The position numbers and the translations under genes are program-made. The notes beneath the pieces were generated by a model, which saw only the letters and a list, made by a program, of their open reading frames with translations, was not told the origin of the DNA and ran no database searches. From Bacteroidota bacterium (GTDB taxonomy: Bacteria; Bacteroidota; Bacteroidia; Chitinophagales; Saprospiraceae): a DNA stretch of 64,000 nucleotides. The stretch spans positions 124,001-188,000 of the forward strand of contig JAIUPL010000005.1 in the NCBI GenBank assembly GCA_020160935.1, in the 5' to 3' direction. This document shows positions 2,946-58,892 of the stretch, in pieces (position 1 is the first letter of the stretch; each line of letters opens with the position of its first letter).

Positions 2946-3283
2946 TTGGTTATTGGTTATCAGTTATTGGTTATCAGGGGGGGTAAGGGATGATGGGTGT
3001 TTCAGGCCGGCGGATCGAGGGAGTTGAGAGGTTGAGAAGTTGAGAGGTTGAGAAGTTGAGAGGTTGAGAGGTTGAGAAGTTGAGAAGTTGAGGGGTTGAG
3101 ATTCAATTACTCTTGTGATACAAAATCTGTTGAGTGGCTGCATCTCAACCCCTCAACCCCTCAACCCCTCAACTTCTCAACCCCTCAACTTCTCAACCTC
3201 TCAACTCCCTCGATCTGCCGGCCTGAAACACCCATCATCCCTTACCCCCCCTGATAACCAATAACTGATAACTAATAACTAAC
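2946..3283. repeat. Giant inverted repeat built of GTTGAGA-type heptamers
   Basis: The left arm (2946-3102) and right arm (about 3143-3283) are near-perfect reverse complements around a loop of about 40 bp. From outside in, each arm has TTATTGG/TTATCAG words, a unique segment (GGATGATGGGTGTTTCAGG) and a run of 7-bp words GTTGAGA/GTTGAGG. It fills the convergent gap between the lipoprotein and the O-antigen ligase gene. The right end reaches into the ligase gene: the last three residues and the stop codon (3272-3274) are written in the repeat. Confidence 0.95.
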
Positions 3284-4591
3284 GCGGAAGGTCGTTTTGC
3301 GCTCCACTTCTGCCATTTTTCCAAACCAGAACAGGTAAAAAAGGTAATAGGATACGCCCATAGAGGTTTCGATGGTATATTCCACCAGAAACGACATGAG
3401 AATAATAATTTGGAAAGTGGCGAACAGGTAAAAATGTCGCCATCCGCCAGTGGCTATCGGCCAGATAAAAGCCAGCAAACTAAGCAGCAGGCCGATGGCG
3501 CCGGTGCCGGCAAGGATGTAAATGAACTGGTTGTGAGGGAGTTTGGGTTCAATGGTGTATTTTGGAAACCGTTGATTTACAATTCTTTGTACCTCCATAG
3601 GCAAGTCGCCTGTACCAACGCCCAACCACCTGTTTTCGCGCCACATCTGCATACCTGCTGCAAAAGACACCCAGCGCTCCGAGTCGGAATAGTTGTCGCC
3701 TTCATTGCGTTGGTATTGTTTCCAGTCCCAGGCCATGTAGGCCAGTCTTTGTTGCAGGCTGGGAATACTCATAATGGCGATAAGCGGGGTGATGACAATA
3801 ATAAGCAAGGTAAACAGACCTGCTTTCCAGCGTCGGGTACGAATGACAAAGCGGATGACGCTGAATACCAGTGCTGCATACAAGGTGACGATGCCACTGC
3901 GTACCGACAGCACATGGATAAAGACAAAAAGCAGGATGACAGCCGCCATCAGGGCTTTCCTTTCCCAGGCAAAACGCCACACATAACGTTGTTCCCAAAG
4001 CCAGCCGCCCACCAGAATGGCAGTGGCCAGGATCAGGTTGAATCGGATATGATTGCGGGGCACCGGAATCGGCTGCCCTTGGCCCAGGTTTTTCAGGATT
4101 TCTTCCGTGTGCAGTGCAAGATTGATGCCCACTCCGATGCAGATCAGAAAAACCGACCAGAACAACACGTACAAAACACTCCGATACTGGTATTTCGACA
4201 GGCTGGGGAAATTGGCAAATACCCAGGGCATCACAAAAAACGGGATTCGTACCCGAGTCCTTTCAAGCCAGAATTCATGGTTGGTCGACCAGAAATAACT
4301 GAGCGCAGGAATCAGCAGCAGCAGCGACATGATTATGCAATCGGGTCGCCTGAAAAATTGTTGAAAGGAATATTTTAATACCGCCCAGGCTGCTTTCAAC
4401 CCGCTTAACGACTCCAGTTTGCCTGCCTCCTGCAGTTTTACAGTGGTATGCCAAAACGCCACTCCAACGAGTCCCCACATACTGATAGACAATAAAAATG
4501 GAGACAGCATCATGCTCACAACCAGCAATGCCGCGAAAAAAGTGGCCAACCCCTCTGGGGTTTTCAGGCTGTTTAAATAGTTGATTTTCAA
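3272..4591 (-). CDS. O-antigen ligase / polymerase-like membrane protein (Wzy_C superfamily)
   Basis: A 439-residue polytopic inner-membrane protein with about ten hydrophobic segments. The large periplasmic loop sits where O-antigen ligases and polymerases have theirs, after the SVRSGIVTLY segment. It carries WLGVGTGDLP and then PHNQFIYILAGTGAIGLLLS, the conserved Wzy_C signature with its loop His. Such proteins join undecaprenyl-linked glycans to lipid A core or to each other, or transfer glycans to proteins. Ligase, polymerase and oligosaccharyltransferase roles cannot be separated from sequence alone. The stop codon lies inside the neighbouring inverted repeat. Confidence 0.85.
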   Translation of the reverse strand: MKINYLNSLKTPEGLATFFAALLVVSMMLSPFLLSISMWGLVGVAFWHTTVKLQEAGKLESLSGLKAAWAVLKYSFQQFFRRPDCIIMSLLLLIPALSYFWSTNHEFWLERTRVRIPFFVMPWVFANFPSLSKYQYRSVLYVLFWSVFLICIGVGINLALHTEEILKNLGQGQPIPVPRNHIRFNLILATAILVGGWLWEQRYVWRFAWERKALMAAVILLFVFIHVLSVRSGIVTLYAALVFSVIRFVIRTRRWKAGLFTLLIIVITPLIAIMSIPSLQQRLAYMAWDWKQYQRNEGDNYSDSERWVSFAAGMQMWRENRWLGVGTGDLPMEVQRIVNQRFPKYTIEPKLPHNQFIYILAGTGAIGLLLSLLAFIWPIATGGWRHFYLFATFQIIILMSFLVEYTIETSMGVSYYLFYLFWFGKMAEVERKTTFRVSY

Positions 4592-4835
4592 AAGTTTGAC
4601 ACGGAACTGTTAAGGAAAACGAACCTTCGGTAACACACAGCGGTACAGACGCTTTTTTAAATAGCGTCAGCAAGTAAATCCCCCTGTATTAACATTCTTC
4701 AGATTCTGATACGCCACGGGAAAATGCAAAGATATGCCCCCGCCGTAAAAGGTAATTCATCTGTTATTTGGGCATGGTTGTCCAAAATGCCGATGCATGG
4801 CCTTTTTCACCTCCAATGCTTTCAACGAACTTCCA

Positions 4836-4843
4836 TACTTTTG
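4836..4843 (+). promoter_or_regulatory. -7 promoter box (TACTTTTG)
   Basis: A perfect match to the Bacteroidetes -7 consensus TAnnTTTG, 9 bp before one candidate ATG (4853) and 21 bp before the preferred ATG (4865). This argues against the earlier in-frame ATG at 4724, which would lie upstream of the promoter. Confidence 0.6.
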
Positions 4844-4864
4844 CGTTGTTCTATGCACCAAGAT

Positions 4865-5617: not shown

Positions 5618-5624
5618 TTACAGT

Positions 5625-6770
5625 ATGCGCGGTTCTCTGAGACTTTTTACCTGGTTTGGCATTCCTGTTCATTTGCATTGGAGTTTCGGACTGATTTTTT
5701 TGTACGCCCTCTGGATCGGCTACGACAATAGCCTCGATCTGATGGGTACGCTGTGGCTGATGGGCTTTTTTGTGGCCTTGTTCGGATGCGTGTTGCTGCA
5801 CGAATACGGGCATGCCCTCACTGCCCGTCGATATGATGTGGATACGCATGATATTATCCTGACGCCCATTGGCGGGATAGCACGCCTGGAGAAAATGCCG
5901 GAAAAACCCTCGCAGGAATTTGTAGTGGCTATTGCGGGGCCGCTTGTCAATGTCGCTATTGCCTTGTTGCTGCTGGGTGTCAGCGCACTGGTATTTCACG
6001 AAGAACGCTGGGAGTTTTTCAAGTGGTTCTTAAACCAGCAATTCTCTTTTTCGGCCGACGAGGATACGGGCCAGATTCTGGAAGAAAGCGGCATCCAACC
6101 CTCTGGTTTGATGTTCTACCTGCCAGTGCTGGTGGCTACCAACATCGGTTTGGTGCTGTTCAACCTCATTCCGGCTTTTCCGATGGATGGCGGCCGCATT
6201 TTCCGCTCCTTGATGGCCATGAAATGGGGCCGCGTTCGCGCTACCCAATGGGCTGCCTGGGTAGGCCAGGCAATCGCCGTGCTGTTCATCGCGTATGGCC
6301 TGTGGTCCAACGCTTTCACCCTCGCGCTGGTGGGGCTTTTTGTATTCACCACGGCCCGTTCCGAGAACGCCATGGTGCAACTCGACGATTTTCTGCGGCG
6401 CTACAAAGCCTCCGACCTCTTGCGCCCGCAATTCACCCGCATGCATGGTAACGACTGGATGCAATCAGCAGCAGCCCTGCTACAGCAAGGCCTGGAACGT
6501 CATTTTCTGGTATTCGACCTCGATGATCAACTGATCGGGATGTTGGAAGAGAACAGTATTGTAGCGGCCATAAAAAAGAATTTGCTGAGCCAGGAAATTG
6601 CACAATTTACCCAGAAAGTGGAGGTCGTTTCACCGGAAGAATCGCTTCAACGCGTTTTTTTTCTTATTCGCCAGCAAGGCAATCCCATGATCGCGGTGGC
6701 CGATGAATCAGGCATACTCGGTGTGATCGATGAGGCAGGGCTGTATCATTTTATGAGAATGAAGAAATGA
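5625..6770 (+). CDS. Site-2 protease family zinc metallopeptidase (M50) with CBS-like C-terminus
   Basis: A 381-residue membrane protease. HEYGH at residues 59-63 in a membrane segment gives two zinc ligands and the catalytic Glu; NLIPAFPMDGGR (residues 180-191) supplies the third ligand, Asp188. About six hydrophobic segments precede a soluble tail from about residue 255 that looks like a pair of CBS domains (ending GNPMIAVADESGILGVIDEAGLY). This is the M50 subgroup of SpoIVFB type, which cuts substrates inside the membrane; CBS domains usually sense adenine nucleotides. The substrate is unknown. The stop codon overlaps the first bases of the following repeat. Confidence 0.92.
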   Translation: MRGSLRLFTWFGIPVHLHWSFGLIFLYALWIGYDNSLDLMGTLWLMGFFVALFGCVLLHEYGHALTARRYDVDTHDIILTPIGGIARLEKMPEKPSQEFVVAIAGPLVNVAIALLLLGVSALVFHEERWEFFKWFLNQQFSFSADEDTGQILEESGIQPSGLMFYLPVLVATNIGLVLFNLIPAFPMDGGRIFRSLMAMKWGRVRATQWAAWVGQAIAVLFIAYGLWSNAFTLALVGLFVFTTARSENAMVQLDDFLRRYKASDLLRPQFTRMHGNDWMQSAAALLQQGLERHFLVFDLDDQLIGMLEENSIVAAIKKNLLSQEIAQFTQKVEVVSPEESLQRVFFLIRQQGNPMIAVADESGILGVIDEAGLYHFMRMKK

Positions 6771-6945
6771 GTAGTGAGTGGTGAGTGGTGAGTGGTGAGT
6801 AGTGAGTGGTGAGTAGTGAGTAGTGAATTACGTTAGAATATTCAGGAGTAATAAGAATATACTCACCACTCACTACTCACCACTCACTACTCACCACTCA
6901 CCACTCACTACTCACCACTCACTACTCACTACTCACCACTCACCA
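6767..6945. repeat. Inverted repeat of GTGAGTA/GTGAGTG heptamers
   Basis: The left arm (6767-6826) is a run of 7-bp words GAGTAGT/GAGTGGT; the right arm (about 6860-6944) is its reverse complement in about 12 words. The centre, about 33 bp, is AT-rich. It fills the whole gap between two convergent genes. The left arm starts at the TGA stop of the M50 protease gene, and the right arm ends within a few bases of the TAA of the aspartyl protease gene. By position it could act as a bidirectional terminator. Confidence 0.95.
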
Positions 6946-8178: not shown

Positions 8179-8211
8179 AGCACACGTCATTGATTTAGGA
8201 GCGAAATGTAG

Positions 8212-8219
8212 CAAAAGTA
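8212..8219 (-). promoter_or_regulatory. -7 promoter box (TACTTTTG) of the aspartyl protease gene
   Basis: A perfect TAnnTTTG box on the minus strand, 21 bp before the 8190 ATG and 33 bp before the 8178 ATG. It fixes the true start as one of these two. Confidence 0.6.
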
Positions 8220-8287
8220 CGGGATGCAAAACCCTCCTGCATGTGAAAACAGGCGAAAGGCGATATATAGACCACCTCGCCTGGGAA

Positions 8288-13574: not shown

Positions 13575-14783
13575 ATGAAGAAATCACTTGCTCCGGCGTT
13601 GCTGGCAACGATATTCGCACTGGCGGCTACGGCGGTATATGCCCAGATACAGCCGAAATGTATCAACGGGAACAACCCGATCACGGGCGAGCGTTGTGCC
13701 AACGCTGTGACTTCGGCTGTTCCTTTCCTTCGTATCGTGCCCGATGCGCGCGGCGGCGCCATGGGCGATGTCGGTATTGCTACCTCGGCCGATCCGAATG
13801 GCATGCACTACAACCAGTCGAAACTGGCTTTTGCTGATAAAAACATCTCGCTGGCAGCCACCTACACCCCGTGGATGCGCAATCTGGGCCTCAATGACGT
13901 ATACCTGGCCTACTTGTCGGGCTATTTCAAAATTGATAAATTCCAGACTGCCGGTTTCGGACTGCGTTATTTCTCGCTGGGCGATATCGAATTTACGGAC
14001 GAAAATGGCCAGTCGCTCGGCCAGGGCCGCCCCAATGAATTTGAGGTGACTGGCGCATATGCCCGCAAACTGACCGAACGTTTCTCGGCTGCTGTCGGCG
14101 CCAAGTTTATCTACTCCAACCTGGCTACAGGCCGTGTGGTGGAAGGCAATGAAATCAAACCGGGCCTCGCCGGCGCTGCCGACATTTCCTTTACCTACAA
14201 GGCGCCCCTGGAAATCAACAACGTAAAAAGTGAACTGACGATCGGTACGGCCCTCACTAACCTGGGTTCGAAAATTACCTATACCAATTCCATCAACCGC
14301 GACTACATTCCGAGCAACCTGGGTATTGGCGCCGCCTGGAAAGTAAACCTCGACGAGTACAACACCCTGACGTTTACCACCGATTTCAACAAACTGATGG
14401 TGCCTACACCGCGCCCTGAAATTGATGAAGACGGCGATGATACGCCCGACTACAAACAGTACTCACCCATTCGCGGCGTGTTCAAATCTTTCGGCGACGC
14501 ACCGGGCGGTTTCAGTGAAGAACTGAAAGAAATTACCATCGGCGCAGGTCTGGAATACTGGTACGACGACCAGTTTGCCATTCGTACCGGCTACTTCTAC
14601 GAGCATTACTCGAAAGGCAACCGCAAGTACTTCAGCGTGGGCCTCGGCGTGAAATACAATGTGTTCGGCCTCAACTTCTCGTACCTGGTACCAACCACCA
14701 ACCAGCGCAATCCGCTCGACAATACGCTGCGTTTCAGCCTGTTGTTCGACTTCGAAGCGTTTGAAGGGGACGGCGACGAGTAA
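13575..14783 (+). CDS. porV: Type IX secretion system outer-membrane protein PorV
   Basis: The ATG at 13575 starts a clear signal peptide (MKKSLAPALLATIFALAATAVYAQ); 402 residues in total. The mature protein begins with an AVPFLRIVPDARGGAMGDVG segment, a hallmark of PorV (LptO). A 14-stranded FadL-like barrel pattern follows with repeated amphipathic strands, ending NTLRFSLLFDFEAF. PorV collects cargo from the SprA translocon and delivers it to PorU on the outer surface. The gene directly follows porU. An Asp/Glu-rich insert (EIDEDGDDTPDY) near residue 280 is probably a surface loop. Confidence 0.95.
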   Translation: MKKSLAPALLATIFALAATAVYAQIQPKCINGNNPITGERCANAVTSAVPFLRIVPDARGGAMGDVGIATSADPNGMHYNQSKLAFADKNISLAATYTPWMRNLGLNDVYLAYLSGYFKIDKFQTAGFGLRYFSLGDIEFTDENGQSLGQGRPNEFEVTGAYARKLTERFSAAVGAKFIYSNLATGRVVEGNEIKPGLAGAADISFTYKAPLEINNVKSELTIGTALTNLGSKITYTNSINRDYIPSNLGIGAAWKVNLDEYNTLTFTTDFNKLMVPTPRPEIDEDGDDTPDYKQYSPIRGVFKSFGDAPGGFSEELKEITIGAGLEYWYDDQFAIRTGYFYEHYSKGNRKYFSVGLGVKYNVFGLNFSYLVPTTNQRNPLDNTLRFSLLFDFEAFEGDGDE

Positions 14784-14787
14784 TTGC

Positions 14788-14951
14788 AACACGGATTACG
14801 CGGATAAAAAAACGGATTTCACGGATGGCCTGGTAAAACAGGGATGCGCCCATTTTTACAATGCCATCCGTGAAATCCGTTTTTTATCCGCGCAATCCGC
14901 GTTACAATGCCATCCGTGAAATCCGTTCTTTATCCGCGTAATCCGTGTTCA
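14788..14951. repeat. Inverted repeat with three copies of an approximately 40-bp unit
   Basis: One forward copy (about 14789-14829, CACGGATTACGCGGAT...) and two reverse-complement copies (about 14861-14903 and 14905-14951) of the same unit lie between the convergent porV and hydrolase genes. The outermost copy is part of the hydrolase coding region and writes its last 16 residues. Imperfect 10-bp words (ACGGATTACGCGGAT / ACGGATTTCACGGAT) make up the unit. Confidence 0.92.
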
Positions 14952-19312: not shown

Positions 19313-19435
19313 TAGGATTTTGGGAATTTAAAGGATTAGAAGGATTCCCGACTTAGAGTGTACAATTTTGTGAATTTGATTAATTGTACGCTCTAAGTCG
19401 GGAATCCTTCTAATCCTTTAAATGCCCAAAATCCT
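19313..19435. repeat. Near-perfect palindrome, about 54-bp arms
   Basis: The arm at 19313-19366 recurs as the reverse complement at 19382-19435 around a 15-bp centre. It contains GGATT words and a TAGAGTGTAC core (19354-19363). It occupies almost all of the convergent gap between the DPP-IV gene and the methylase gene and stops 2 bp before the latter's TGA. Its position suits a bidirectional terminator. Confidence 0.95.
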
Positions 19436-20169: not shown

Positions 20170-20199
20170 TGCCGATGGTGAGTTATTAGTTATTGGTTA

Positions 20200-20229
20200 T
20201 TGGTTATTAGGGTGGTAGGGGTACATTTG
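20200..20229 (+). promoter_or_regulatory. Candidate scpA promoter in left palindrome arm
   Basis: TTG at 20200-20202, a 19-bp spacer and TACATTTG at 20222-20229 match the Bacteroidetes -33/-7 layout and point to scpA. The TTG belongs to the repeated TTATTGG word. Confidence 0.6.
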
Positions 20230-20272
20230 CACAATTGTGTAGCCCCACAGTAAGAGACGCCATAAAATTGTG

Positions 20273-20302
20273 CAAATGTACCCCTACCACCCTAATAACC
20301 AA
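20273..20302 (-). promoter_or_regulatory. Candidate rsmI-like gene promoter in right palindrome arm
   Basis: Exact mirror of the scpA promoter: on the minus strand TTG (20302-20300), 19 bp, TACATTTG (20280-20273), pointing at the methylase gene. Confidence 0.6.
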
Positions 20303-20323
20303 TAACCAATAACTAATAACCAC

Positions 20324-21067
20324 ATGGCCGAAACCTTCACCATAAAACTCCCTGCATTCGAGGGCCCGTTTGACCTCCTGCTCTTTTTCATCGAGCGGGA
20401 CGAACTGGATATTTACAACATTCCCATTGCGCAGATAACCGACGATTTTTTGGGGTATCTGCGGCAAATGGAGGCCATGAGCGTCGATCTGGCATCCGAG
20501 TTCATTGTGGTGGCGGCCACGCTGATGCGCATCAAGGCAAAAATGCTGCTGCCTAGAAAACAACTTGATGAAGAAGGCAACGAAATTGACCCGCGCCGCG
20601 AACTCGTCGATCGCCTGCTCGAATACAAACGTTACAAAAGCGTGCTGGAAGACCTGCGCCGCCTCGAAGAAGTGCGCGCTTTCATGAACCCGCGCGGCTA
20701 TGCCGGCACCGAACTGCGCAAACTGGCCGAACACGCCCTCGCCGATGCCGAAATGGAATCGGTGACGCTGTACAAACTACTTCGTGTATTCGAACGCCTG
20801 ATGAACCGCTTCGAGGAAGAAAAAAAAGCGAAACGGGTACATACGGTGTACAATTTCAACTACACCATCCAGGAACAGCGCGCATACCTGCAAAATACCC
20901 TGAAAAAAGGTGAAAAAACCAGTTTCGAATCGCTTTTCCTGGCCCTGGAAAATCGCATTCATGCCATCGTGACCTTCCTGGCGCTGCTCGAATTGCTCAA
21001 TGCCCAGGAAGTGACCCTGATTCAGGGCGATGGCGCGAATAATTTCTGGCTGACGCTGCCGGAGTAG
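20324..21067 (+). CDS. scpA: Segregation and condensation protein A (ScpA)
   Basis: A 247-residue protein with the kleisin N-terminal motif FEGPFDLLLFFIERDELDIYNIPI, then ITDDFLGYL and ASEFIVVAATLMRIKAKMLLP, all diagnostic for ScpA. The C-terminal winged-helix region (VTFLALLELLNAQEVTLIQ) binds the SMC head. ScpA bridges SMC heads in the chromosome condensation complex; scpB and smc are not in this window. The ATG is 2 bp after the palindrome, and the stop codon TAG is part of the first word (GGCAAGA) of the next repeat arm. Confidence 0.96.
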   Translation: MAETFTIKLPAFEGPFDLLLFFIERDELDIYNIPIAQITDDFLGYLRQMEAMSVDLASEFIVVAATLMRIKAKMLLPRKQLDEEGNEIDPRRELVDRLLEYKRYKSVLEDLRRLEEVRAFMNPRGYAGTELRKLAEHALADAEMESVTLYKLLRVFERLMNRFEEEKKAKRVHTVYNFNYTIQEQRAYLQNTLKKGEKTSFESLFLALENRIHAIVTFLALLELLNAQEVTLIQGDGANNFWLTLPE

Positions 21068-21100
21068 GCAAGAGGCAAAGGGCAAGAGGCAAGGGGCAAG
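21065..21100 (+). repeat. Repeat arm of GGCAAGA/GGCAAGG heptamers (left partner)
   Basis: About five 7-bp words starting at the scpA stop codon. The reverse-complement words (CCCTTGC) form a longer tract at 21848-21940, so the two tracts are inverted with respect to each other and enclose the AT-rich gene 21220-21825. Confidence 0.85.
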
Positions 21101-21825: not shown

Positions 21826-21847
21826 AATCAGTATCTTTTAGATTTTT

Positions 21848-21940
21848 TGCCCCTTGCCCCTTGCCCCTTGCCCCTTGCCCCTTGCCCCTTGCCCCTTGCC
21901 CCTTGCCCCTTGCCCCTTGTCCCTTGCCCCTTGCCCCTTC
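21848..21940 (-). repeat. Tandem CCCTTGC heptamer tract, about 13 copies
   Basis: Thirteen nearly identical 7-bp units, the purest tract in the window. It ends exactly at the TGA stop codon (21939-21941) of the HD-domain gene. Open reading frames through it encode only Leu-Ala-Pro-Cys-Pro repeats and are not genes. Confidence 0.95.
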
Positions 21941-23929: not shown

Positions 23930-24025
23930 GCCCCGGCTTTAGCCGTTTCCTACAAATAAAAAGTTGGTTTTTCGTTTTGTTTTGATGTGTCTGCTCTGCG
24001 CAATGCAGGGCAGACTTTTTTTTTC

Positions 24026-24436
24026 TGGTGTTTTGGTGTTTCTGTGTTTCTGTGTTTTAGTGTTTTGGTGTTTTTGTATGCGTTGCTTTTGGCATTTTTG
24101 CGTAATATCATGCCTTTAAATAGCAACCTTAGGGAATGTTCAAAAAACCGTGTGAATGGATGCTATTAGTGTATTTTTTTCGCAGCCTTTTGCCACTCCG
24201 CCGCCTTGTCCTCCTGACGGGAACCGTCCACTCTACGAGGGAAAATACGTTGTTACGCACCGTAGAGTGGACGGTTCCCGTCAGGAGGACAAGGCGGTGG
24301 CGTGGCAAAAGGCTGCGAAAAAAAACGCAAAAATCCGGATGAAAACGGTTTTCTGAGCACTCCCTCAACCTTAAATGTCAAGAGCAACGCATACCAAAAC
24401 ACCAAAACACCAAAACACAAAAACACCCACTCACAC
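24026..24436. repeat. Very long nested palindrome (about 410 bp) with GTGTTTTG words
   Basis: The outer arms (24026-24095 and 24381-24436) are GGTGTTTTGGTGTTT-type words and their complement CCAAAACACC. The inner arms (24174-24235 and 24263-24325) are almost perfect complements with a TAGAGTGGAC core (24263-24272). The intermediate segments pair only in part. It fills most of the 508-bp gap between the HtrA and DUF255 genes. No other gene is seen in this gap. Confidence 0.93.
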
Positions 24437-29056: not shown

Positions 29057-29153
29057 GTTTTGTGTTTTAGTGTTTTGGTGTTTTGGTGTTTTTGTATTCA
29101 GCATCTCTGTGTACTCGAAAACACCAAAACACTAAAACACCAAAACACAAAAT
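29057..29153. repeat. Hairpin of GTGTTTTG words between gldK and gldL
   Basis: The left arm 29058-29095 (TTTTGTGTTTTAGTG...) and right arm about 29119-29153 are reverse complements around a loop of about 24 bp. It directly follows the gldK stop codon. The same words as the 24-kb palindrome are used. It could terminate or attenuate transcription inside the T9SS operon; gldL has its own promoter 155 bp further on. Confidence 0.92.
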
Positions 29154-32551: not shown

Positions 32552-32555
32552 TAGA

Positions 32556-32940
32556 GGTGAGAAGTGAGAGGTGAGAGAGGCGTAGCGTACACGATGTATG
32601 CTACGCCTCTTTTTTTTAACCTCACCCCCCGGCCCCCTCTCCGAGGGAGAGGGGGAGCGAGTACCCTTGGCCTTTTCAGTTATGATGCCAGTCCATCTTG
32701 CTCCAACGGGTTAAGGGAAGCGAACGCCTTTGGCGTTTTCAGTTATGATGCCAGTCCATCCTGCTCCAACGGGTAAAGGGAAGCGAACGCCCTTGGCCTT
32801 TTCAGTTATGATGCCAAGCGGGAAGTCACCCCCTCTCCGTTGGAGAGGGGGCCGGGGGTGAGGTTAAAAAAAGAGGCGTAGCGCACCATCGTGTACGCTA
32901 CGCCTCTCTCACTTCTCACCTCTCACTTCTCACTTCTCAT
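32556..32940. repeat. Nested inverted repeat with an internal 63-bp tandem repeat
   Basis: The outermost arms are GTGAGAA/GTGAGAG words (32556-32580 and about 32907-32939). Inside them a GAGGCGTAGCGTACACGATG arm and its complement, then an AACCTCACCCCCCGGCC arm with its complement. At the centre is a 63-bp direct repeat, about 2.5 copies (TTCAGTTATGATGCCAGTCC at 32675 and 32738, and the start of a third at 32801). It fills the 378-bp gap between the convergent gldN and lrp genes and touches the lrp 3' end. No gene is supported here. Confidence 0.93.
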
Positions 32941-33487: not shown

Positions 33488-33722
33488 CCCATATGCCAAT
33501 AAACCTTTGTAAATTTTGGAAATGCGGGCATTTTGTCATTTGAATGCAATAAAAAATACCCGTTTTGTGAAGAAAATTTAAACAAACCAAAAAATATTTG
33601 TCTGTAACAGTAAAGTAGCCGACAAAAAATAAAAAAGGCCGAACCGGCGCTTATCGGGCATCGAAATGCCAAACAAAACCTGCCGATTCGACCTTTTGGA
33701 AAAAGAAGTGTGTTGGGAAGGG

Positions 33723-33912
33723 GTGATGAGGGTTGATGAGGTTGATAAAGTTGATAAAGGTTGATAAAGTTGATGAGGGTTGATATTCAGCGGCTCGATG
33801 AAGAGCGATTGCTTCTTTTCCGAGTGGATGAACATCAACCCTCATCAACTTTATCAACCCTCATCAACCCTCATCAACTTTATCAACTCTTATCAACCCT
33901 CATCAACCCTTT
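33723..33912. repeat. Inverted repeat of GTTGATGAGG/GTTGATAAA words (family shared with 48.5 kb)
   Basis: The left arm (33723-33784) and right arm (about 33834-33912) are runs of 8-10 bp words starting GTTGAT and their complement. The centre (33785-33833) is CGGCTCGATGAAGAGCGATT... and is very similar to the centre of the 48482-48661 element. The right arm touches the stop codon of the glutamate dehydrogenase gene at 33911. Confidence 0.95.
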
Positions 33913-36713: not shown

Positions 36714-36733
36714 AATTTGAAATGTTATTTTTG

Positions 36734-36804
36734 GTGTTGGAGACCTCACCCTCCGGCCCCCTCACCGCATTGGAGAGGGGGCCGGGGGGGAGGTCTCCAA
36801 CACC
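36734..36804. repeat. Palindrome between ccmB and ccmC-like genes
   Basis: GGTGTTGGAGACCTCACCCT... at 36734-36764 pairs with the reverse complement ending at 36804, with a loop of about 10 bp. The GC-rich inner arm (CCGGCCCCCTC) is the same as in the element at 32.6 kb. It lies between two genes of one apparent operon, 7 bp after the ccmB stop, and could reduce read-through. Confidence 0.9.
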
Positions 36805-37491: not shown

Positions 37492-37690
37492 CACACGACC
37501 GGAGGGAATCGGGTGGTTTGGGGCAAATTTCATTGGAAAAATTCCTGCAAATCCCGTGCTATTTATACAGCCGCCTGTGAAACTGCCCATTCGTGAACCG
37601 GATGGTATCCGGAATATGGTACCCTGAAACCCCGTTTTTATGCTTTCGAAAGATGGCAAGGAGACCACAAGTCTATTGATCTGTTCGTTT

Positions 37691-37764
37691 TTCCCGTAGA
37701 GTAATTTCCCGCAGATCTGCGCAAATCTGCGGGAAATTACTCTACGGGAAATTACTCTGCGGGA
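37691..37764. repeat. Palindrome with TAGAGTAATTTCCCGC core
   Basis: The arm 37691-37716 pairs with 37725-37750 as a perfect 26-bp reverse complement, and a third partial copy follows to 37764. It lies in the 483-bp gap 37457-37939 between ccmB and hemD, which otherwise holds the ccmB promoter and the hemD terminator. Confidence 0.93.
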
Positions 37765-44894: not shown

Positions 44895-45101
44895 AGGGCT
44901 TGGGCAAGGGGCAAGAAGCAAAAGGCAAGGGGCAATAAGCAAAAGGCAAGGGGCAAGAAGCAAGAGGCAAAAAGTAGGCGGCTTTAAATTTGCCCTTTGC
45001 CCTTTGCCCCTTGCCTCTTGCCCTTTGCCCCTTGCTTATTGCCCCTTGCTTATTGCCTCTTGCCTCTTGCTTATTGCCTCTTGCTTATTGCCTCTTGTCC
45101 T
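44895..45101. repeat. Inverted repeat of GGCAAGA/GGCAATA heptamers
   Basis: The left arm (44895-44976) and right arm (44990-45101) are runs of 7-bp words (GGCAAGG, GGCAATA, GCAAGAA) and their complements (CCTTGCC, TTATTGC). The loop is about 13 bp. The right arm ends at the TAG (45100-45102) of the aminopeptidase gene. It is the same word class as at 21.1-21.9 kb. Confidence 0.95.
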
Positions 45102-46398
45102 ACGCTACCATCGCATTCATCAGTTCCTCAATTTCTTCGGCTTCCATCGGAATGTCTTTAAACATATCGACTGGGCCGTTGTCGGTGATGAGGATATTGT
45201 TTTCGATGCGGATACCGAGGTTTTCCTCCGGAATGTAGATACCAGGTTCGCAGGTAAACAGGTTGCCTGCGCGGAAAGGCTCGTAGCGGAACATAATATC
45301 GTGTACGTCGAGGCCAAGGTGGTGGCTGGTGCCGTGCATGAAGTATTTCTTGTAGGCAGGCCAGTTTTTATCCTGCTTTTCGATGTCGTCGCGGCTGATC
45401 AGGCCCAGTTTGAGCAATTCACCTTCCATGATTTTGCCCACTTCCTTGTTGTATTCTTCCAGGGTAGTGCCAGGCACGAGCATGGCGCGGGCTTCTTTCA
45501 GCACATGCAGCACGGAGTTGTACACAGCGCGTTGTCGATCGGTAAAGGTGCCGCTCACAGGAATGGAGCGCGTCAGGTCGGCATTGTAGTTGGCATATTC
45601 GCAGCCGAAGTCCATCAGCACCACGTCGCCGGCCTGGCATTGGCAGTTGTTTTCGATATAGTGCAGCACGCAGGCATTTTTTCCGGTACCAATAATCGGT
45701 GTATAGGCATGCCCGGTAGCGCGGTTGCGGATAAATTCGTGGATAATTTCTGCCTCGATTTCATATTCCCACACGCCGGGTTTGGTGAATTCGAGTACCC
45801 TGCGGAATGCTTTTCCTGTAATGTCGATGCAATGCTGGGTAGCATCCACTTCCCATTGGCTTTTTACGGTCTGCAGTTTTTTCAAAACCAGTTGGGAGCG
45901 ATATACGGCATGTGCCGGGTAGCGGTCGCGGATTTCACGGGCAAAACGCAGGTCGCGATATTCCACGGGCGACAAGTACCGGTCATTTTCATTCAGGTTG
46001 AGGTAAATACCATCGGAGAGCAGGATCATCTCATTGATTATTGCATCAGCCTCGTCGGTGAAGTACACTTTTTCAATACCCGATGCTGCGCGGGCTTCTT
46101 CCTTGGTGTATTTGTGGCCTTCCCAGACGGCGAGGTGCTCGTTGGTACGTCGGATCAGCAGCACTTCCTTGTGGCCATCTTTCGGGCAGTCGGGGAAAAG
46201 CAGCAGCATGGTTTCTTCCTGATCGATTCCAGTGAGGTAATACAAACCGGCATTCTGGCGGAAATTGTGATATGAATCGCCCGAACGAGGCATCTGATCG
46301 TTCGAGTTGAAAATCGCCAGTGTGTTGGGTTTCATTTCGCGCGCAAAGCGCTTGCGGTTGTGTTGGAACAGTTCGGAATTAAGAGCCTGATATTTCAT
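45100..46398 (-). CDS. pepP: Xaa-Pro aminopeptidase (aminopeptidase P, M24B)
   Basis: A 432-residue protein. An N-terminal AMP_N domain (FQHNRKRFAREMKPNTLAIF, FYLTGIDQEE-like YYLTGIDQEET) is followed by the pita-bread metallopeptidase domain. Dinuclear metal ligands are visible in VLMDFGCEYANYNADLTRSIPV (two Asp), MHGTSHHLGLDVHD (His), TCEPGIYIPEENLG (Glu) and IRIENNILIT (Glu). It removes an N-terminal residue before proline. No signal peptide, so cytoplasmic; it may complement the exported DPP-IV in proline peptide use (inference). Confidence 0.93.
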   Translation of the reverse strand: MKYQALNSELFQHNRKRFAREMKPNTLAIFNSNDQMPRSGDSYHNFRQNAGLYYLTGIDQEETMLLLFPDCPKDGHKEVLLIRRTNEHLAVWEGHKYTKEEARAASGIEKVYFTDEADAIINEMILLSDGIYLNLNENDRYLSPVEYRDLRFAREIRDRYPAHAVYRSQLVLKKLQTVKSQWEVDATQHCIDITGKAFRRVLEFTKPGVWEYEIEAEIIHEFIRNRATGHAYTPIIGTGKNACVLHYIENNCQCQAGDVVLMDFGCEYANYNADLTRSIPVSGTFTDRQRAVYNSVLHVLKEARAMLVPGTTLEEYNKEVGKIMEGELLKLGLISRDDIEKQDKNWPAYKKYFMHGTSHHLGLDVHDIMFRYEPFRAGNLFTCEPGIYIPEENLGIRIENNILITDNGPVDMFKDIPMEAEEIEELMNAMVA

Positions 46399-46615: not shown

Positions 46616-46647
46616 TACTACTCACTACTCACCACTCACTACTCACT
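46616..46647 (+). repeat. Single-arm ACTCACT/ACTCACC heptamer tract abutting gcvH
   Basis: About 4.5 words of CACTACT/CACCACT, the same words as the right arm of the element at 6.8 kb, ending directly at the ATG of gcvH. No inverted partner is seen nearby, so no hairpin is expected. It occupies the ribosome-binding region. Confidence 0.85.
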
Positions 46648-47034
46648 ATGAAATTCCCTGCTAACTGCAAATACACCAAAGATCACGAATGGCTGCGCGT
46701 AGAAGGCGGCAATGTCGCCTATGTGGGCATCACCGATTTCGCTCAGGGCGAACTGGGCGAACTGGTTTACGTTGAAGTGGAAACGGTCGGCGAAACTGTG
46801 GAAGCCAATACCGTATTCGGTACGGTGGAGGCTGTTAAAACGACCTCCGAATTGTTTATGCCCGTTACCGCTAAAGTGCTGGAATTCAATGCGGCAGTAG
46901 GTGATAAAGGCGACCCGGCCCTGATTAACGAAGACCCATATGGCGCAGGCTGGATTATCAAAATCGAAGTGGCTAACCCGGCTGATCTGGAAGGTTTGAT
47001 GAGCGCGGAGGAGTATGAGGGGCATGTAGGGTGA
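46648..47034 (+). CDS. gcvH: Glycine cleavage system H protein (GcvH)
   Basis: The ATG at 46648 gives 128 residues (MKFPANCKYTKDHEWLRVEGG), the standard length. The lipoylation site is Lys64 in GTVEAVKTTSEL, and NEDPYGAGWIIKIE is the conserved C-terminal segment. GcvH carries the aminomethyl group between the P, T and L proteins of glycine cleavage; those genes are elsewhere. The leader is made of repeat words with no Shine-Dalgarno sequence. Confidence 0.97.
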   Translation: MKFPANCKYTKDHEWLRVEGGNVAYVGITDFAQGELGELVYVEVETVGETVEANTVFGTVEAVKTTSELFMPVTAKVLEFNAAVGDKGDPALINEDPYGAGWIIKIEVANPADLEGLMSAEEYEGHVG

Positions 47035-47184
47035 CTTGAGTCCTAAGTCCTGAGTCCTAAGTCCTGAGTCCTGAGTCTGTAGAGTCGACCACGTTGCCCT
47101 GGGTATTGTGAAACAGGAAGGCCCAGGGCAACGTGGTCGACTCTACAGACTTAGGACTCGGGACTTAGGACTCAGGACTCAAGT
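47035..47184. repeat. Inverted repeat of CTAAGTC/CTGAGTC words between gcvH and MFS gene
   Basis: The outer arms (47035-47076 and about 47151-47184) are 7-8 bp words TCCTAAG/TCCTGAG and their complement. The inner arms (47075-47100 and 47123-47150) pair perfectly and carry TAGAGTCGAC (47080-47089) and CACGTTGCCCTGGG. The left end is next to the gcvH stop; the right arm writes the last six residues and the stop of the MFS gene. Confidence 0.95.
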
Positions 47185-48481: not shown

Positions 48482-48661
48482 TGTTGATGAGGTTGATAGG
48501 GTTGATGAGGGTTGATAAAGGTTGATGAGGGTTGATATTAATCGGCTCGGTAAAGATAAATTGTCTCGTTTTTCGAGTTGCTGAATATCAACCCTCATCA
48601 ACCTTTATCAACCCTCATCAACCCTATCAACCTCATAAACCCTATCAACCCTCATCAACCT
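48482..48661. repeat. Inverted repeat of GTTGATGAGG words (family shared with 33.8 kb)
   Basis: The left arm (48482-48537) and right arm (about 48588-48661) are GTTGATGAG/GTTGATAGG words and their complement. The centre (TTAATCGGCTCGGTAAAGAT... to GAGTTGCTGAATATC) aligns with the centre of the 33723-33912 element. It lies between the divergent MFS and serine dehydratase genes and thus occupies their promoter region. Confidence 0.95.
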
Positions 48662-51262: not shown

Positions 51263-52003
51263 ATGAAACTCCTCGACGGAAAAACGGCTTTGATTACAGG
51301 CGGCTCGCGCGGTATCGGCGAAGCCCTCGTACGCGCATTTGTGGAACATGGCGCAAAAGTGGCCTTCACCTATGTTTCTCCCGGCTCGGCTGCACGCTCG
51401 GAAGCGCTGGCTGCCGAACTGGGCGAAAACGCCCGCGCATACCAAAGTGATGCCGGCAACTATGCACAGGCTGAAGCATTGATCGGCCAGGTGGTAAAAG
51501 ATTTTGAAAAACTCGACATCGTCATCAACAATGCCGGTATCACACGCGATACGCTCATGCTGCGCATGACGGAAGAACAATGGGACGAGGTGATTCAAAC
51601 CAACCTCAAATCGGTGTTCAATCTGACCAAACACGCGCTGAAACCCATGATCCGCACCGGCGGCAGTATCATCAATATGAGTTCGGTGGTAGGCGTATTC
51701 GGCCAGCAGGGCCAGGCTAACTATGCGGCTTCCAAGGCCGGTATTATCGGCTTTTCCAAATCCATCGCCAAGGAATACGGCTCGCGCGGCATCCGCTGCA
51801 ATGCCATCGCTCCCGGCTTTATTGCTACGGAAATGACCGACGCCCTCGATGAAAAAACCAAAGAAGGCTACCTGGCCGGTATTCCACTCAAACGCCTCGG
51901 CGCAGGTACTGACGTAGCCAATACCTGTGTGTTTCTGGCCTCCGATATGGGAGCGTATATCACGGGTCAGGTGATTTCGGTGTGCGGGGGGTTGAATATG
52001 TAG
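51263..52003 (+). CDS. fabG: 3-oxoacyl-[acyl-carrier-protein] reductase (FabG)
   Basis: A 246-residue classical SDR. TGGSRGIGEAL (residues 12-22) binds the cofactor, NNAG (89-92) stabilises the fold, and the active-site residues are Asn114, Ser140/141 (INMSSVVG), Tyr154 and Lys158 (YAASKAG). The C-terminus ITGQVISVCGGLNM is typical for FabG, which reduces 3-ketoacyl-ACP with NADPH in fatty acid elongation. It starts 83 bp after the DUF4199 gene and may have its own promoter. The stop codon touches the next repeat. Confidence 0.94.
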   Translation: MKLLDGKTALITGGSRGIGEALVRAFVEHGAKVAFTYVSPGSAARSEALAAELGENARAYQSDAGNYAQAEALIGQVVKDFEKLDIVINNAGITRDTLMLRMTEEQWDEVIQTNLKSVFNLTKHALKPMIRTGGSIINMSSVVGVFGQQGQANYAASKAGIIGFSKSIAKEYGSRGIRCNAIAPGFIATEMTDALDEKTKEGYLAGIPLKRLGAGTDVANTCVFLASDMGAYITGQVISVCGGLNM

Positions 52004-52004
52004 G

Positions 52005-52140
52005 GTTGATGAGTTGAGGGGTTGAAAAGTTGAGTAGTTGAGGTGTTTACTCTTTGCTTTTGCAGGTAAAGTTGCCTTTTAACGCTCAACCCTTCAACCT
52101 CTCAACCCTCAACCCTCAACCCTCAACCTCTCAACCTCTC
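52005..52140. repeat. Inverted repeat of GTTGAGGG words between fabG and cytochrome gene
   Basis: The left arm (52005-52042) and right arm (about 52083-52140) are 7-bp GTTGAGG/GTTGAAA words and their complement, around a 40-bp centre. The words match those at 3.0-3.2 kb and 58.8 kb. Both ends are within 2 bp of the stop codons of the convergent genes. Confidence 0.93.
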
Positions 52141-55361: not shown

Positions 55362-55378
55362 GGAGGGTTTTGGGGTTT

Positions 55379-55411
55379 CGTGTTTTGGTGTTTTGGTGTT
55401 TTTGTGTTTTG
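55379..55411 (+). repeat. Single-arm GTGTTTTG word tract
   Basis: Four words of GTGTTTTG/GTGTTTTT, as at 24 and 29 kb, upstream of the lipoprotein promoter; no inverted partner is nearby. Confidence 0.85.
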
Positions 55412-55474
55412 GAGGGCTTCGCTTCCGGCGTTGGAGAACAAGGATTGGTATGCAGGCAGACTCAAACATCTTCT

Positions 55475-55557: not shown

Positions 55558-55660
55558 ACCGTTCTCTCACTCTCTCACACTCTCACTCTCTCACTCTCTC
55601 ACTCTCTCACACTCTCACTCTCTCACTCTCTCACTCTCTCACTCTCTCACTCTCTCACCT
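55558..55660 (+). repeat. CTCTCACT tandem tract in the leader of the histidine kinase gene
   Basis: About 13 words of CTCTCAC with an extra T in most (7-8 bp period), on one strand only, between a -7 box and the kinase ATG at 55668. Pure pyrimidine-rich repeats of this kind are prone to length change. Confidence 0.93.
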
Positions 55661-55667
55661 CTCTTTC

Positions 55668-57568: not shown

Positions 57569-57672
57569 GAGAATAGTCGTTGTATTTAATAATACGACAG
57601 GGGTAGTTTGGTAGTTGATGGGCATTCCGGCCTGCTTACAAAGTCACGCTACCAAAAGCACGCCCTGAAACT

Positions 57673-57715
57673 GAAAATCCCCGCCGGAAGACCTGGAGGC
57701 CCCGGCGGGATTTTC
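57673..57715 (-). terminator. Terminator after the lanthipeptide precursor gene
   Basis: GAAAATCCCGCCGG (minus strand, 57715-57702) pairs with 57687-57673 with one bulged base around a 14-nt loop; the far side ends in a short T-run. It marks the end of the cluster. Confidence 0.7.
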
Positions 57716-57740
57716 ACATTCATTTGGAGATGGACAGGGC

Positions 57741-57965
57741 TTAGAACAGGATGTCGTCCGGTGGGCACCAGATGCTGGTAGTCGTTTTTTTCGGGAACGG
57801 GAACGGGTCAGGAATGCAACCGGTTTGGTACACCGGCGTGCCGATACCACCTTGAACGTGTTTGAGGATGTTCAGGTCGGTTTGCACCTGTCCTGCAGGG
57901 TTGTTGAGGTCGGAAGTGGCTGCGTCAGCGTTTTTCCAGTTGCGGATGTTTTGTTCTGCTTTCAT
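57741..57965 (-). CDS. Putative class II lanthipeptide precursor peptide with GG leader
   Basis: A 74-residue peptide. The leader (1-40) ends LNILKHVQGG, the double-glycine site cut by C39 peptidases such as the one two genes upstream. The predicted core (41-74) has Cys50 and Cys67 and hydroxy residues Thr43, Thr48, Thr61-63 and Ser64, suitable for dehydration and thioether rings. It is Pro-rich (DPFPFP, CPPDD) and ends ILF. It is the last gene of a LanM-transporter-adaptor-precursor run. I do not recognise the peptide family; the assignment rests on GG site, residue content and neighbours. Confidence 0.75.
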   Translation of the reverse strand: MKAEQNIRNWKNADAATSDLNNPAGQVQTDLNILKHVQGGIGTPVYQTGCIPDPFPFPKKTTTSIWCPPDDILF

Positions 57966-58019
57966 GCTTAAAAAATTTAGAAAAATAATGAGTGTCCTAC
58001 TCTGTTCAGGGTTTTCGGA

Positions 58020-58817
58020 CTAATTCCCTTTTTTGGTGTATCGAGGCGTCGTGGGGTCTGTTTTTGTTTGTTGGCGCTGCCGGTCGAGCAGCATTTGAAG
58101 GGGCTGCACAACCTTTTCGATCAGCCGCGGATTGTCTACTATTATTTCTGTTCTGCCGGAAATTCCAAAGGCCGGGTTCAGGGCTATTTGGCGGTTGCTG
58201 ACGAGTCCTTCGGGCAAGTTCAGCCGCACAGCAAAGTGCTCGTCGACGGCCATGGCGCTAATATCCTGTACCCTGGCTCGCACGCTGCCGTACGTTTCCG
58301 GTGCATAAGCGTCGAAGTGCAGCAGTGCTTCCTGGCCGACCTGAATGTGGCCGATAGCGCCAGCGGGCAACTGGATGACGACAGAAGCGGGCAGGGCATT
58401 TTCGGTGGTTATGACAAACAAGGGCTGGTTTTTGTCTACTTTTTCGTTGCGTTCGATCGGCAAATAAGCCCTCATTCTGCCGTCCTGCGTGTTCTTCAAG
58501 GGTAATGTTTCAATCAGGCCGTGTTCATTTCTGTATTCGATGATGCCGAGCGTATCGCCGGCTTGTACGTAAGAGGAGTCGGCGCAGCAGCGCATGATCA
58601 GGCGGCCCTTCACCGATGATCGAAGCACTTCGGGTTGTGCAGACGCCGGAATGGTGAATGCCGTCTGAACGGTTTGCGGGTAGCGAACGAACCATGCAAG
58701 CGCCAGCAAAACACCCGTGACAATCAGGAACATGGTGTTGCCCCATTTCAGGATACCTCCCGGCATTTGGCTCAGCAGGGCGTCGGCATCATAGCGTTGG
58801 CGAATGTTATCGGGCAT
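58020..58817 (-). CDS. HlyD-family membrane fusion protein of the lanthipeptide exporter
   Basis: A 265-residue protein with one transmembrane helix (about residues 28-46, TMFLIVTGVLLALAWFVRY). A periplasmic barrel-sandwich/lipoyl-like region follows (VLRSSVKGRLIMRCCADSSYVQAGDTLGIIEY, KNQPLFVITTENALPASVVIQLPAGAIGHIQVGQEALLHF). There is no long coiled coil, as in other short adaptors of Bacteroidota peptide exporters. It joins the ABC transporter to an outer-membrane channel encoded elsewhere. It lies 83 bp after the transporter gene and 54 bp before the precursor gene. Confidence 0.85.
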   Translation of the reverse strand: MPDNIRQRYDADALLSQMPGGILKWGNTMFLIVTGVLLALAWFVRYPQTVQTAFTIPASAQPEVLRSSVKGRLIMRCCADSSYVQAGDTLGIIEYRNEHGLIETLPLKNTQDGRMRAYLPIERNEKVDKNQPLFVITTENALPASVVIQLPAGAIGHIQVGQEALLHFDAYAPETYGSVRARVQDISAMAVDEHFAVRLNLPEGLVSNRQIALNPAFGISGRTEIIVDNPRLIEKVVQPLQMLLDRQRQQTKTDPTTPRYTKKGN

Positions 58818-58843
58818 GTTGTTGAGATTGAGCGGTTGAAATT

Positions 58844-58892
58844 GATGAGGGGTTGAGGGGTTGAGATGATGAGGGGTTGAGGGGTTGAGGGG
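58844..58892 (-). repeat. Single-arm GTTGAGGG tract between transporter and adaptor genes
   Basis: Seven words of GTTGAGG/GATGAGG as at 3.0 and 52.0 kb, placed inside the lanthipeptide operon, without an inverted partner. Confidence 0.88.

Follow-up and report, generated by a model that had tools for sequence, protein, structure and literature searches.

Word-built hairpins in the intergenic gaps of a Saprospiraceae genome: candidate dispersed elements akin to short tandem heptamer repeats

Introduction

What are the long hairpins that fill many intergenic gaps on contig JAIUPL010000005.1 of a Saprospiraceae genome, and how might they have come to stand there? We address this question in a window of 64,000 nucleotides, positions 124001-188000 of that contig (C21 of our genome G000, 5.84 Mb in 51 contigs), in which an initial annotation had described inverted repeats with arms made of runs of near-identical short words. 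Short tandem repeats of heptamers (STRR) have been described in filamentous cyanobacteria. On balance, our analysis leans towards the hairpins being about 16 families of dispersed non-coding elements and, with comparable confidence, towards these elements having grown from STRR-like heptamer arrays and spread by replication-based copying.

Hairpins in the window and across the genome

With ungapped arms of at least 20 nt, at least 80% complementarity and a spacer of at most 600, we found 17 inverted repeats in the window and none in five first-order Markov shuffles of it, and the hairpins that had been listed at twelve loci (2.9, 6.8, 14.8, 19.3, 20.2, 24.0, 29.1, 32.6, 33.7, 44.9, 47.0 and 48.5 kb) are real. 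The longest 25 of the 69 inverted-repeat pairs map to nine of the 17 loci. Two further entries stand in altered form, that at 52.0 kb as an imperfect hairpin and that at 21.1/21.8 kb as inverted GGCAAG arrays 780 bp apart; at 58.8 kb there is one arm only, and the same is true of arrays at 46.6, 55.4 and 55.6 kb. The inverted repeats are mostly intergenic, one of the 17 (8105-8464) lying within genes, and in 13 of them G outnumbers C in the left arm. Many arms are tandem 7-, 8-, 9- or 10-mers according to Tandem Repeats Finder, by which the word arrays of the window were detected; periods of 7 and 14 dominate, and both arms of a locus keep the same word, as first described. Rfam models gave no match to the window at gathering thresholds.

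Are the words specific to their locus, with one set for each gap, as had been proposed? Neighbouring gaps do carry different families, but a given word is found at many places: a 16-mer drawn from the GTTGATGAGG word has 369 matches in the genome (reversed control, 0), and among the matches listed a plus-strand copy usually comes first, with a minus-strand copy about 100 bp further on. We extended the search to 849 kb of the genome, made up of the window and 40 other stretches, 16 of which had initially been picked for word matches, and found 183 hairpins with arms of at least 25 nt. By regular expressions composed after inspecting the sequences, 164 of these fall into 16 dispersed families, on which ground locus-specific sets of words are rejected, and several of the 19 unassigned hairpins are visibly family members. 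Genes were called with our own hexamer-based caller, using no annotation, and start codons are the least certain part of these calls; 168 of the 183 hairpins overlap a called gene by less than 30% and 7 by more than 70%, in line with the suggestion that the structures are intergenic and genome-wide. Three long contigs tiled without gaps (604 kb, with C14 and C17 originally noticed through word matches) carry 112 hairpins, which extrapolates to about 1,080 per genome if the genome is uniform.

Arm length has family medians of 29-65 nt, and word arms span 25-188 nt. An inner stem or apex recurs in most families, by eye in up to 14 copies per family (for example GTAGAGTACACC in F03, CTCACGTTGCTTTTGGC in F10 and TATTCATCGGCTCGG in F01), and some inner pieces are common to different families. 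Every copy is G-first in twelve families (F01, F02, F04-F10 and F12-F14) and 8 of 10 copies are so in F16; F11 and F15 are C-first (12 of 16 and 2 of 2 copies), and F03 has both orders (9 copies G-first, 4 C-first, 4 with equal counts). A typical element may be pictured as starting with an array of G-rich words, followed by an inner stem or apex and a loop, and closing with a mirrored C-rich array.

When the 183 elements were compared by BLAST with 200 bp of flank on either side, seven nested pairs, among them those at 24.0 and 32.6 kb, and one overlapping pair topped the list. The best 37 non-nested pairs listed share both stems and the loop, in both orientations and at up to 98% identity, and their similarity ends at or inside the hairpin ends or overruns them by at most 56 bp. 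Since the likeness of distant copies extends over stems and loop and ends at or near the hairpin ends, whole hairpins must have been copied from locus to locus, in addition to any copying from arm to arm. Arrays of period 7 number 88 in hairpins and 24 outside both hairpins and genes; direct arrays without a partner arm, the STRR trait, are therefore not the rule in this sample, most word arrays sitting in hairpins.

Orthologous gaps in relatives

How stable is the occupant of a given gap? The relative G028, taken as the genome of contig JAEUUT010000196.1, which has the same hairpins, is collinear with G000 (77 orthologues, mean amino-acid identity 93.2%, divergence at four-fold sites 0.348 over 8,124 sites). 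Out of 75 orthologous gaps, 50 carry a hairpin in neither genome, 18 in both, 3 in G000 only and 4 in G028 only, and in some of the one-sided gaps the second genome does carry an element, though a weaker one or one with a single arm. The family is the same in 14 of the 18 shared gaps, where permutation predicts 2.06 and none of 10,000 permutations reaches 14; one of the four gaps scored as different, at 23.9 kb, has an outer F07 array common to both genomes that was missed by the rule. By eye, the family is swapped in six gaps (G000/G028): at -14.8 kb (F08/F12), -6.2 kb (F05/F03), 2.9 kb (F02+F06/F03, the latter an AGTCCTG hairpin), 36.7 kb (F15/F07), 52.0 kb (F06/F12) and 75.3 kb (F06/F07). 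The gap at 52.0 kb has the same layout in both genomes, a hairpin directly after one stop codon and a few bases before the other, but between these same flanks G028 has an AGGATT hairpin (F12). Presence varies as well: at -0.8 kb a 228-bp gap with an F04 hairpin is matched by a gap of 17 bp. Further states are seen in more distant relatives: in L054 the gap at 33.7 kb is without a hairpin, and one of F13 type stands at 41.1 kb, a place that is free of hairpins in the window, and L055 carries F01 at a gap where the window carries F04. Swaps of family and presence or absence at orthologous gaps uphold the view that these are not ordinary conserved terminators. The solo array at 55.6 kb, upstream of the start of the same gene in both genomes, is built of an 8-mer word here and of the 7-mer CTCACCT in G028, which suggests that a new word arose there and took over the array without the array itself being moved.

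For the 14 same-family, same-gap pairs we ranked the G028 copy against our sampled own copies (849 kb of 5.84 Mb) by the 100 nt around the midpoint. The same-gap copy ranks first in 6 of the 14 comparisons, by 0.05-0.06 identity for F07 at 29.1 kb and F13 at 14.8 kb and by only 0-0.03 for F12, F08 (twice) and F04. It ranks lower in the other 8 (for example at place 13 of 17 in two F03 gaps and at place 9 of 25 in an F01 gap), of which F07 at 24.0 kb and F08 at 32.6 kb are uninformative because the midpoint falls inside a nested insert, and F02 at -11.9 kb pits a composite against a plain element. The F05 core at 6.8 kb is 94.4% identical over 178 bp to a copy 75 kb away on the contig, while the same-gap copy of G028 reaches 0.72 and rank 5 of 10. 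Since the same-gap copy is often no closer than others, a gap tends to keep its family, and the copy in it appears often to be replaced or remade.

Concerted change of the two arms

Over the 625 aligned base pairs of the 14 same-family orthologous hairpins we counted 46 compensated and 70 one-sided changes; the arms of a hairpin mismatch at 0.058 and 0.068 within the two genomes, against a divergence of 0.144 per arm between them. In 549 within-genome copy pairs, which are not mutually independent and include unpaired leftovers, 25,273 aligned base pairs contain 1,301 compensated and 2,251 one-sided changes, where about 91 compensated ones would be expected under independence. The compensated share of changed pairs is half or more in F02, F03, F09, F11 and F12, 0.21 in F01 and at most 0.15 in F05, F04 and F14. 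The arms thus change in concert beyond chance in most families. The initial annotation had suggested that arms are copied from each other, and concerted change is what copying of either arms or whole hairpins predicts; the suggestion falls short in that whole-hairpin copying between loci is also needed. Paired changes are predicted alike by replacement of the whole hairpin, by copying from arm to arm and by selection for the stem, and relatives this distant do not separate them. There is a warning in this: in a genome of this kind, paired changes within a long hairpin are no proof of a functional RNA, as they may come from DNA copying.

Polarity of arrays at gene borders

Word arrays with no 12-nt inverted match within 700 bp, which we call solo arrays, are oriented with respect to genes. 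In the 849 kb, the G-rich strand reads in the sense direction from the nearest gene border into the gap in 47 of 54 (26/31 at stops, 21/23 at starts; two-sided binomial p 2e-8), some of the 54 being halves of wide or imperfect pairs such as those at 21.1/21.8 and 52.0 kb. A strict recount, with slightly different picking of arrays, started from 52 and left out 14 that have an inverted partner array no more than 5 kb away; polarity is kept in 33 of the remaining 38 (18/21 at stops, 15/17 at starts; p 4e-6). In relatives, pooled from G028, G006, G031, G022 and hairpin-poor genomes, 43 of 51 solo arrays keep it, as do 2 of 4 in G028 alone and 14 of 17 in the hairpin-poor relatives alone (p 0.013); G016 has no solo array.

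Viral contigs with GTTAT[CT][AG] arrays yielded at least 120 stretches, and the counts that follow are from 80 of these, found by a single F02 pattern chosen from the window. Within 60 bp of a border 54 of 69 arrays keep the polarity (39/45 at stops, only 15/24 at starts); 9 lie farther off, with 3 keeping it, 13 are at contig edges and 2 in genes. Stop codons account for 45 of the 69, and 2 arrays are paired. On two cyanobacterial plasmids 5 of 9 solo arrays keep the polarity, but most of these lie more than 100 bp from a border. As far as the excerpts from the published reports go, the repeats of Xanthomonas and Nostoc have the same geometry (PMC4692102), and TAACTGA, the C-strand of F02, stands just upstream of starts in Beggiatoa, consistent with the polarity, which a Microcystis sample from the same report (6 forward and 8 reverse to the start, 8 between stops) fits less well (PMC4679880).

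Position relative to genes

Among gaps no shorter than 30 bp, the 849 kb have a hairpin in 63 of 89 that are convergent, 74 of 309 that are tandem and 20 of 113 that are divergent; on the three tiled contigs the figures are 43 of 64, 36 of 211 and 14 of 87, respectively. From stop codon to hairpin end the median distance is 5 bp (at most 10 bp in 132 of 200, with 63 overlapping), and from start codon to hairpin end it is 62.5 bp (at most 10 bp in 11 of 114). Filled convergent gaps have a median non-hairpin remainder of 9 bp, and the 49 convergent gaps without a hairpin have a median length of 32 bp. Where an arm overlaps the stop end of a gene by at least 7 nt, the overlap is made of family words in 19 of 21 cases, so that the element there provides the final codons and the stop; coding ends as templates for the arms are mostly rejected on the same ground.

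In a simple scan of our own, U-tract terminators are at the shuffled level at gene ends followed by a hairpin (8/113 convergent, 3/69 tandem) and above it at those without (20/137 and 29/222), and hairpin-poor relatives also have few (11/119 and 13/103). This rules out U-tract (intrinsic) terminators, and any ending of transcripts by the hairpins would use another way; the hairpins might still act in both directions to end transcripts or to insulate neighbouring genes. We also counted stop codons in the arms. Read inward, arms have stops in 1.97 of the three frames on average, outward in 0.99. Within 45 nt, all three frames are stopped in at least 60% of arms in seven of the 16 families and in fewer than 10% in F02, F04, F07, F11, F13, F15 and F16; F02 and F10 have more stops outward than inward. 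Stops in all frames are thus rejected as a general rule, only seven families reaching 60%, and in some families gene-facing stop codons may help the element to be tolerated.

Distribution among genomes

The F02 pattern has 253-734 matches in each of G000, G028, G016, G006 and G031 (reversed control at most 110, in G016). Elsewhere in the 42-member genus it has 51 in G022, 36 in G005 and 0-4 in the other 35, and in an evenly drawn phylum sample of 395 genomes, our own included, 45 have a match and only our own has more than 25. G028, G016, G006 and G031 are also the closest to G000 by the protein of window 47165-48412. Hairpins per kb amount to 0.22 in G000 (0.19 on the tiled contigs), 0.25 in G028, 0.26 in G016, 0.16 in G006, 0.31 in G031 and 0.16 in G022; to 0.02-0.05 in G007, G009, G008, G012, G021 and G005, of which G007 and G009 are few-contig assemblies; and to none in G004, G011, G019, G035 and G002, with 8.7-40 kb scanned in each. 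Of the 42 genomes of the genus, only these five, which are related, show the burst; G022 is an exception in having many hairpins of other kinds.

Other relatives have hairpins of further words. One in G016 (L055, 3848-4103) has 70-nt arms of AATACGTC-like words and falls outside the 16 families of our own-genome sample, and one in G005 (L155, 1335-1579) is built of CAGTTATCAGTGAG words, which are similar to cyanobacterial repeats and had no match among the plasmids searched. Our words have two weak matches on cyanobacterial plasmids, of 34 bp in Euhalothece and 40 bp in Nostoc; 69.5 of the 119.5 kb of these two plasmids were scanned and contain one short inverted pair (20-nt arms) besides tandem arrays. 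Two further plasmid searches found nothing.

Search for a copying enzyme

Reverse transcriptases gave no match in four of the five hairpin-rich genomes, and a reverse transcriptase as maker of the hairpins is rejected for that reason. G000 itself has four, and its four nearest hairpin-rich relatives none. Y1 transposases are no commoner in hairpin-rich than in hairpin-poor genomes, and their number is unlinked to hairpins across 20 genomes; neither of the two Y1 matches in G000 has a word-family hairpin in the surrounding 3.2-3.3 kb. An origin as repetitive extragenic palindromic (REP) elements moved by REP-associated tyrosine transposases (RAYTs) is rejected on these flanks and counts; the hairpins also lack the REP size of 20-40 bp and, by eye and uncounted, a common end tag such as the GTAG or CGTC of REPs. 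In place of fixed terminal repeats the hairpins end in arrays whose number of words varies, and in 12 orthologous gaps inspected by eye there is no clear target-site duplication, though the flanks have diverged. In 11 wide pairs we looked for an autonomous element with a gene in its loop; the only open reading frame (ORF) annotated, of 201 aa at 21220-21825, has no Pfam match.

Loss of SbcD was considered too. G000 has no match to TIGR00619 (SbcD) at E 0.001, and a match, if only a weak one, is present in 35 of the 37 genus members searched; only five of the 37 (G004, G008, G012, G014 and G036) have one above the cut-off, and hairpin-rich G028, G016, G006 and G031 retain a weak homologue, as poor genomes do. 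None of the five rich genomes has an above-cut-off match, but neither do most of the poor ones, so loss of SbcD is rejected as the cause and would be at most permissive.

Individual loci of the window

The hairpin at 2941..3287 is a composite, with outer arms of GTTATTG words (F02), inner GTTGAGA words (F06), 145-nt arms and a 57-nt loop. Between convergent genes stand a GTGAGTA/TGAGTGG hairpin (F05) at 6768..6945, whose left arm begins inside a TGA stop codon, an AGGATT-word hairpin (F12) at 19314..19435, and a AGTCCTGAGTC hairpin (F03) at 47037..47181, in which 10 base pairs are altered on both sides and 5 on one relative to the same-family hairpin of G028; an imperfect GTTGAGG hairpin (F06) at 52003..52136, between the stop codons of convergent genes, is below the thresholds of the ungapped finder. 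Words of the CACGGATT type (F13) form the hairpin at 14780..14950, with a second, 46-bp copy of its right arm. The GTTATTG hairpin (F02) at 20182..20320 fills the divergent gap between a TP_methylase gene on the minus strand and a ScpA gene on the plus strand, by the starts of our own caller, and a GTTGATGAGG hairpin (F01) in another divergent gap, 48483..48660, is absent from L055. The wide inverted pair of F04 consists of a GGCAAG array at 21067..21100 (plus strand) and, at 780 bp, a TTGCCCC array at 21847..21939 (minus strand).

Nesting is seen in the GTGTTTTG hairpin (F07) at 24022..24427, with another hairpin in its loop (24174-24324), and in the GTGAGAG-type hairpin (F08) at 32553..32930, with a nested CCGGCCCCCTC hairpin (F15) at 32626-32858, where the nested part in G028 is F07; a 63-bp tandem repeat of 2.4 copies (32664-32816) lies within the nested F15 hairpin. 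Another GTGTTTTG hairpin (F07), at 29058..29152, has its closest relative among the copies compared in the same gap of G028. The GTTGATGAGG hairpin (F01) at 33718..33911 has a loop with CGGCTCG, its gap being nearly empty in L054. A short C-first hairpin of F15 type at 36733..36804 had been missed initially; its gap holds a GTGTTTTG hairpin in G028 and neither in L054. Nearby is an F11-like, near-perfect 62-bp palindrome without a loop (TTTCCCGTAGAGTAATTTCCCGCAGATCTGC arm, 37690-37751). The GGCAAGG hairpin (F04) at 44903..45102 has imperfect arms of 68-80 nt; the 1189-aa ORF beside it (41221-44790) has strong internal DNA repeats and many offset matches to its orthologues.

Among the solo arrays, one of the GTGAGTA family at 46617..46648 (minus strand) has its C-strand in the sense direction immediately upstream of an ATG, and a TCTCTCAC array at 55563..55663 (minus strand) is directly upstream of an ATG. 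A GTGTTTTG array (F07) at 55367..55412 (plus strand) is an exception to the border polarity, and so, by the nearest border, is a GTTGAGGGG array (F06) at 58828..58892 (plus strand), of which there is none in the G028 gap.

Explanations

In the reading towards which we lean, the families would have expanded in one Saprospiraceae clade from the short, STRR-like tandem heptamer arrays found at gene borders of many bacteria. Spread would occur by replication-based copying, through template switching or gene conversion between hairpins, with no dedicated transposase; template switching within a hairpin would keep its arms complementary, and slippage would alter the number of words and, together with conversion, the word itself. 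Persistence behind stop codons could reflect the least harmful place, and perhaps also the stops in three frames of seven families. One could further speculate, and we do so tentatively, that the border itself polarises word arrays, with the G-rich strand pointing away from the gene whatever the direction of transcription and across unrelated bacteria, and that in one clade this outward G-strand folds back and is copied, so that hairpins spread between gaps by replication-based copying without an encoded enzyme, the slot keeping its family while the copy is replaced. If true, this would be a class of self-propagating DNA elements that needs host replication only.

Several observations count against replication-based copying from STRR-like arrays. 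Tandem words blur the alignments of hairpin copies, and the within-genome copy pairs are not mutually independent, as noted above. In F05, F04 and F14 the arms mismatch at 0.100, 0.141 and 0.083, where copies diverge at 0.082, 0.124 and 0.083. Some hairpins are vertical orthologues, namely those of F07 at 29.1 kb and of F13 at 14.8 kb. The relative differs at 35% of four-fold sites, too many to tell apart copying in place, conversion, and deletion with re-insertion. We found no transposition intermediate, clear target-site duplication or mobilising gene, the gene search covering Y1 and reverse transcriptase families. The idea of tolerance through stop codons is weak, as shuffled arms already have stops in 1.63 frames.

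Could the hairpins instead be functional, namely bidirectional terminators or 3'-end stabilisers that evolve fast, with the stem under selection and the words arising by slippage? Their filling of 63 of 89 convergent gaps down to a median of 9 bp, their abutting stop codons, and the fall of U-tract terminators to the shuffled level only where a hairpin follows would fit such a role. We nevertheless think it rather unlikely: the hairpins have no U-tract, 49 convergent gaps (median 32 bp) do without them, as do hairpin-poor relatives that have few U-tract terminators themselves (11/119, 13/103), and 20 of 113 divergent gaps, such as that at 20.2 kb, are occupied too. Classical miniature inverted-repeat transposable elements or REP elements, mobilised in trans by a transposase (a RAYT for REPs), would likewise be dispersed, palindromic and intergenic, with whole-unit copies in both orientations and presence or absence at orthologous gaps. 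Variable-number word arrays in place of fixed terminal repeats, the absence of word-family hairpins within 3.2-3.3 kb around the two Y1 matches, Y1 numbers unlinked to hairpins in 20 genomes (Y1 and reverse transcriptase families having been searched) and the lack of a clear target duplication at the junctions inspected make this quite improbable in our view.

A purely local process, in which a border array is copied in inverted form on the spot and families look alike through convergence of words, would account for the polarity shared by solo arrays, also in hairpin-poor relatives (14/17), for the word changed in place at 55.6 kb, and for the hairpin at 2.9 kb, whose opposite arm mirrors a gene-specific coding end. 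It would not produce the non-repetitive inner stems and loops that distant copies share, since loops shared between loci cannot arise locally, and 19 of 21 stop-end overlaps consist of family words; we give it a slim chance, slightly below that of elements mobilised in trans. That the hairpins are an artefact of assembly or binning is highly improbable: the five hairpin-rich genomes are indeed drafts, of 51 to 660 contigs, and no closed genome of the clade came up, but word hairpins occur in all five, and G028 mostly has the same family between the same genes.

Comparison with known systems

The broad kinds to which these hairpins belong, heptamer repeats and intergenic palindromes, are already known, and the statement that they are not a known feature class was too strong, heptamer arrays being in print (PMC4692102, PMC4679880); what follows draws on excerpts of the reports cited. 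The GGGNATC-type heptamer repeats of Xanthomonas and Nostoc, some as inverted pairs and numbering 70 and 75 in two Xanthomonas genomes, resemble ours in being G-rich 7-mers in intergenic positions with stop-codon overlap, and in having the G-rich strand sense near stops and on the non-coding strand before starts (PMC4692102). That report follows one word type, with four units preferred and few pairs in Nostoc, whereas here there are about 16 families of 7-, 8- and 10-mers, long matched stems, unique inner parts, and most convergent gaps are occupied. The TAACTGA direct repeats of Beggiatoaceae, cyanobacteria and five Bacteroidetes are a rotation of the F02 C-strand, stand in arrays just upstream of Beggiatoa starts and are patchily distributed; the corresponding gap in relatives of Gramella and of Aequorivita lacks them, which resembles the presence and absence seen here, but the excerpts describe no hairpin families (PMC4679880).

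A word-built stem is known in P6b of the Nostoc trnL intron, made of seven-base motifs in two classes with interchangeable role and varying in length by word steps, although at a single intron locus and not dispersed (PMC4476775). REP elements share the dispersed, palindromic, intergenic position downstream of genes, in unidirectional and convergent gaps, and differ in their 20-40 bp, tagged ends and a GTAG class tied to RAYTs (PMC3733652). Abundant dispersed hairpins are also known from organelles, as the palindromes of Volvox, termed apparently selfish (PMC2670323), and the hairpin elements of sponge mitochondria, attributed to multiple invasions (PMC2800124). Template switching between the arms of inverted repeats homogenises them (PMC8604942, PMC7202029), as the paired changes suggest here, but is a mutational process and not an element family (PMC8604942).

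In the open PMC literature we found neither a report of intergenic palindromic repeats in Saprospiraceae nor the combination of many word families, long matched stems, slot swaps and occupancy of most convergent gaps. With about a thousand long word-built hairpins per genome (extrapolated), in many families and in orthologous gaps that allow comparison, the system makes it testable how arrays originate, for what reason they keep to gene border and strand, how palindromes survive and spread, and whether the structures end transcripts. Other bacteria have seven-base repeats that are known but unexplained, and the hairpins look like an extreme form of these, one that folds into hairpins.

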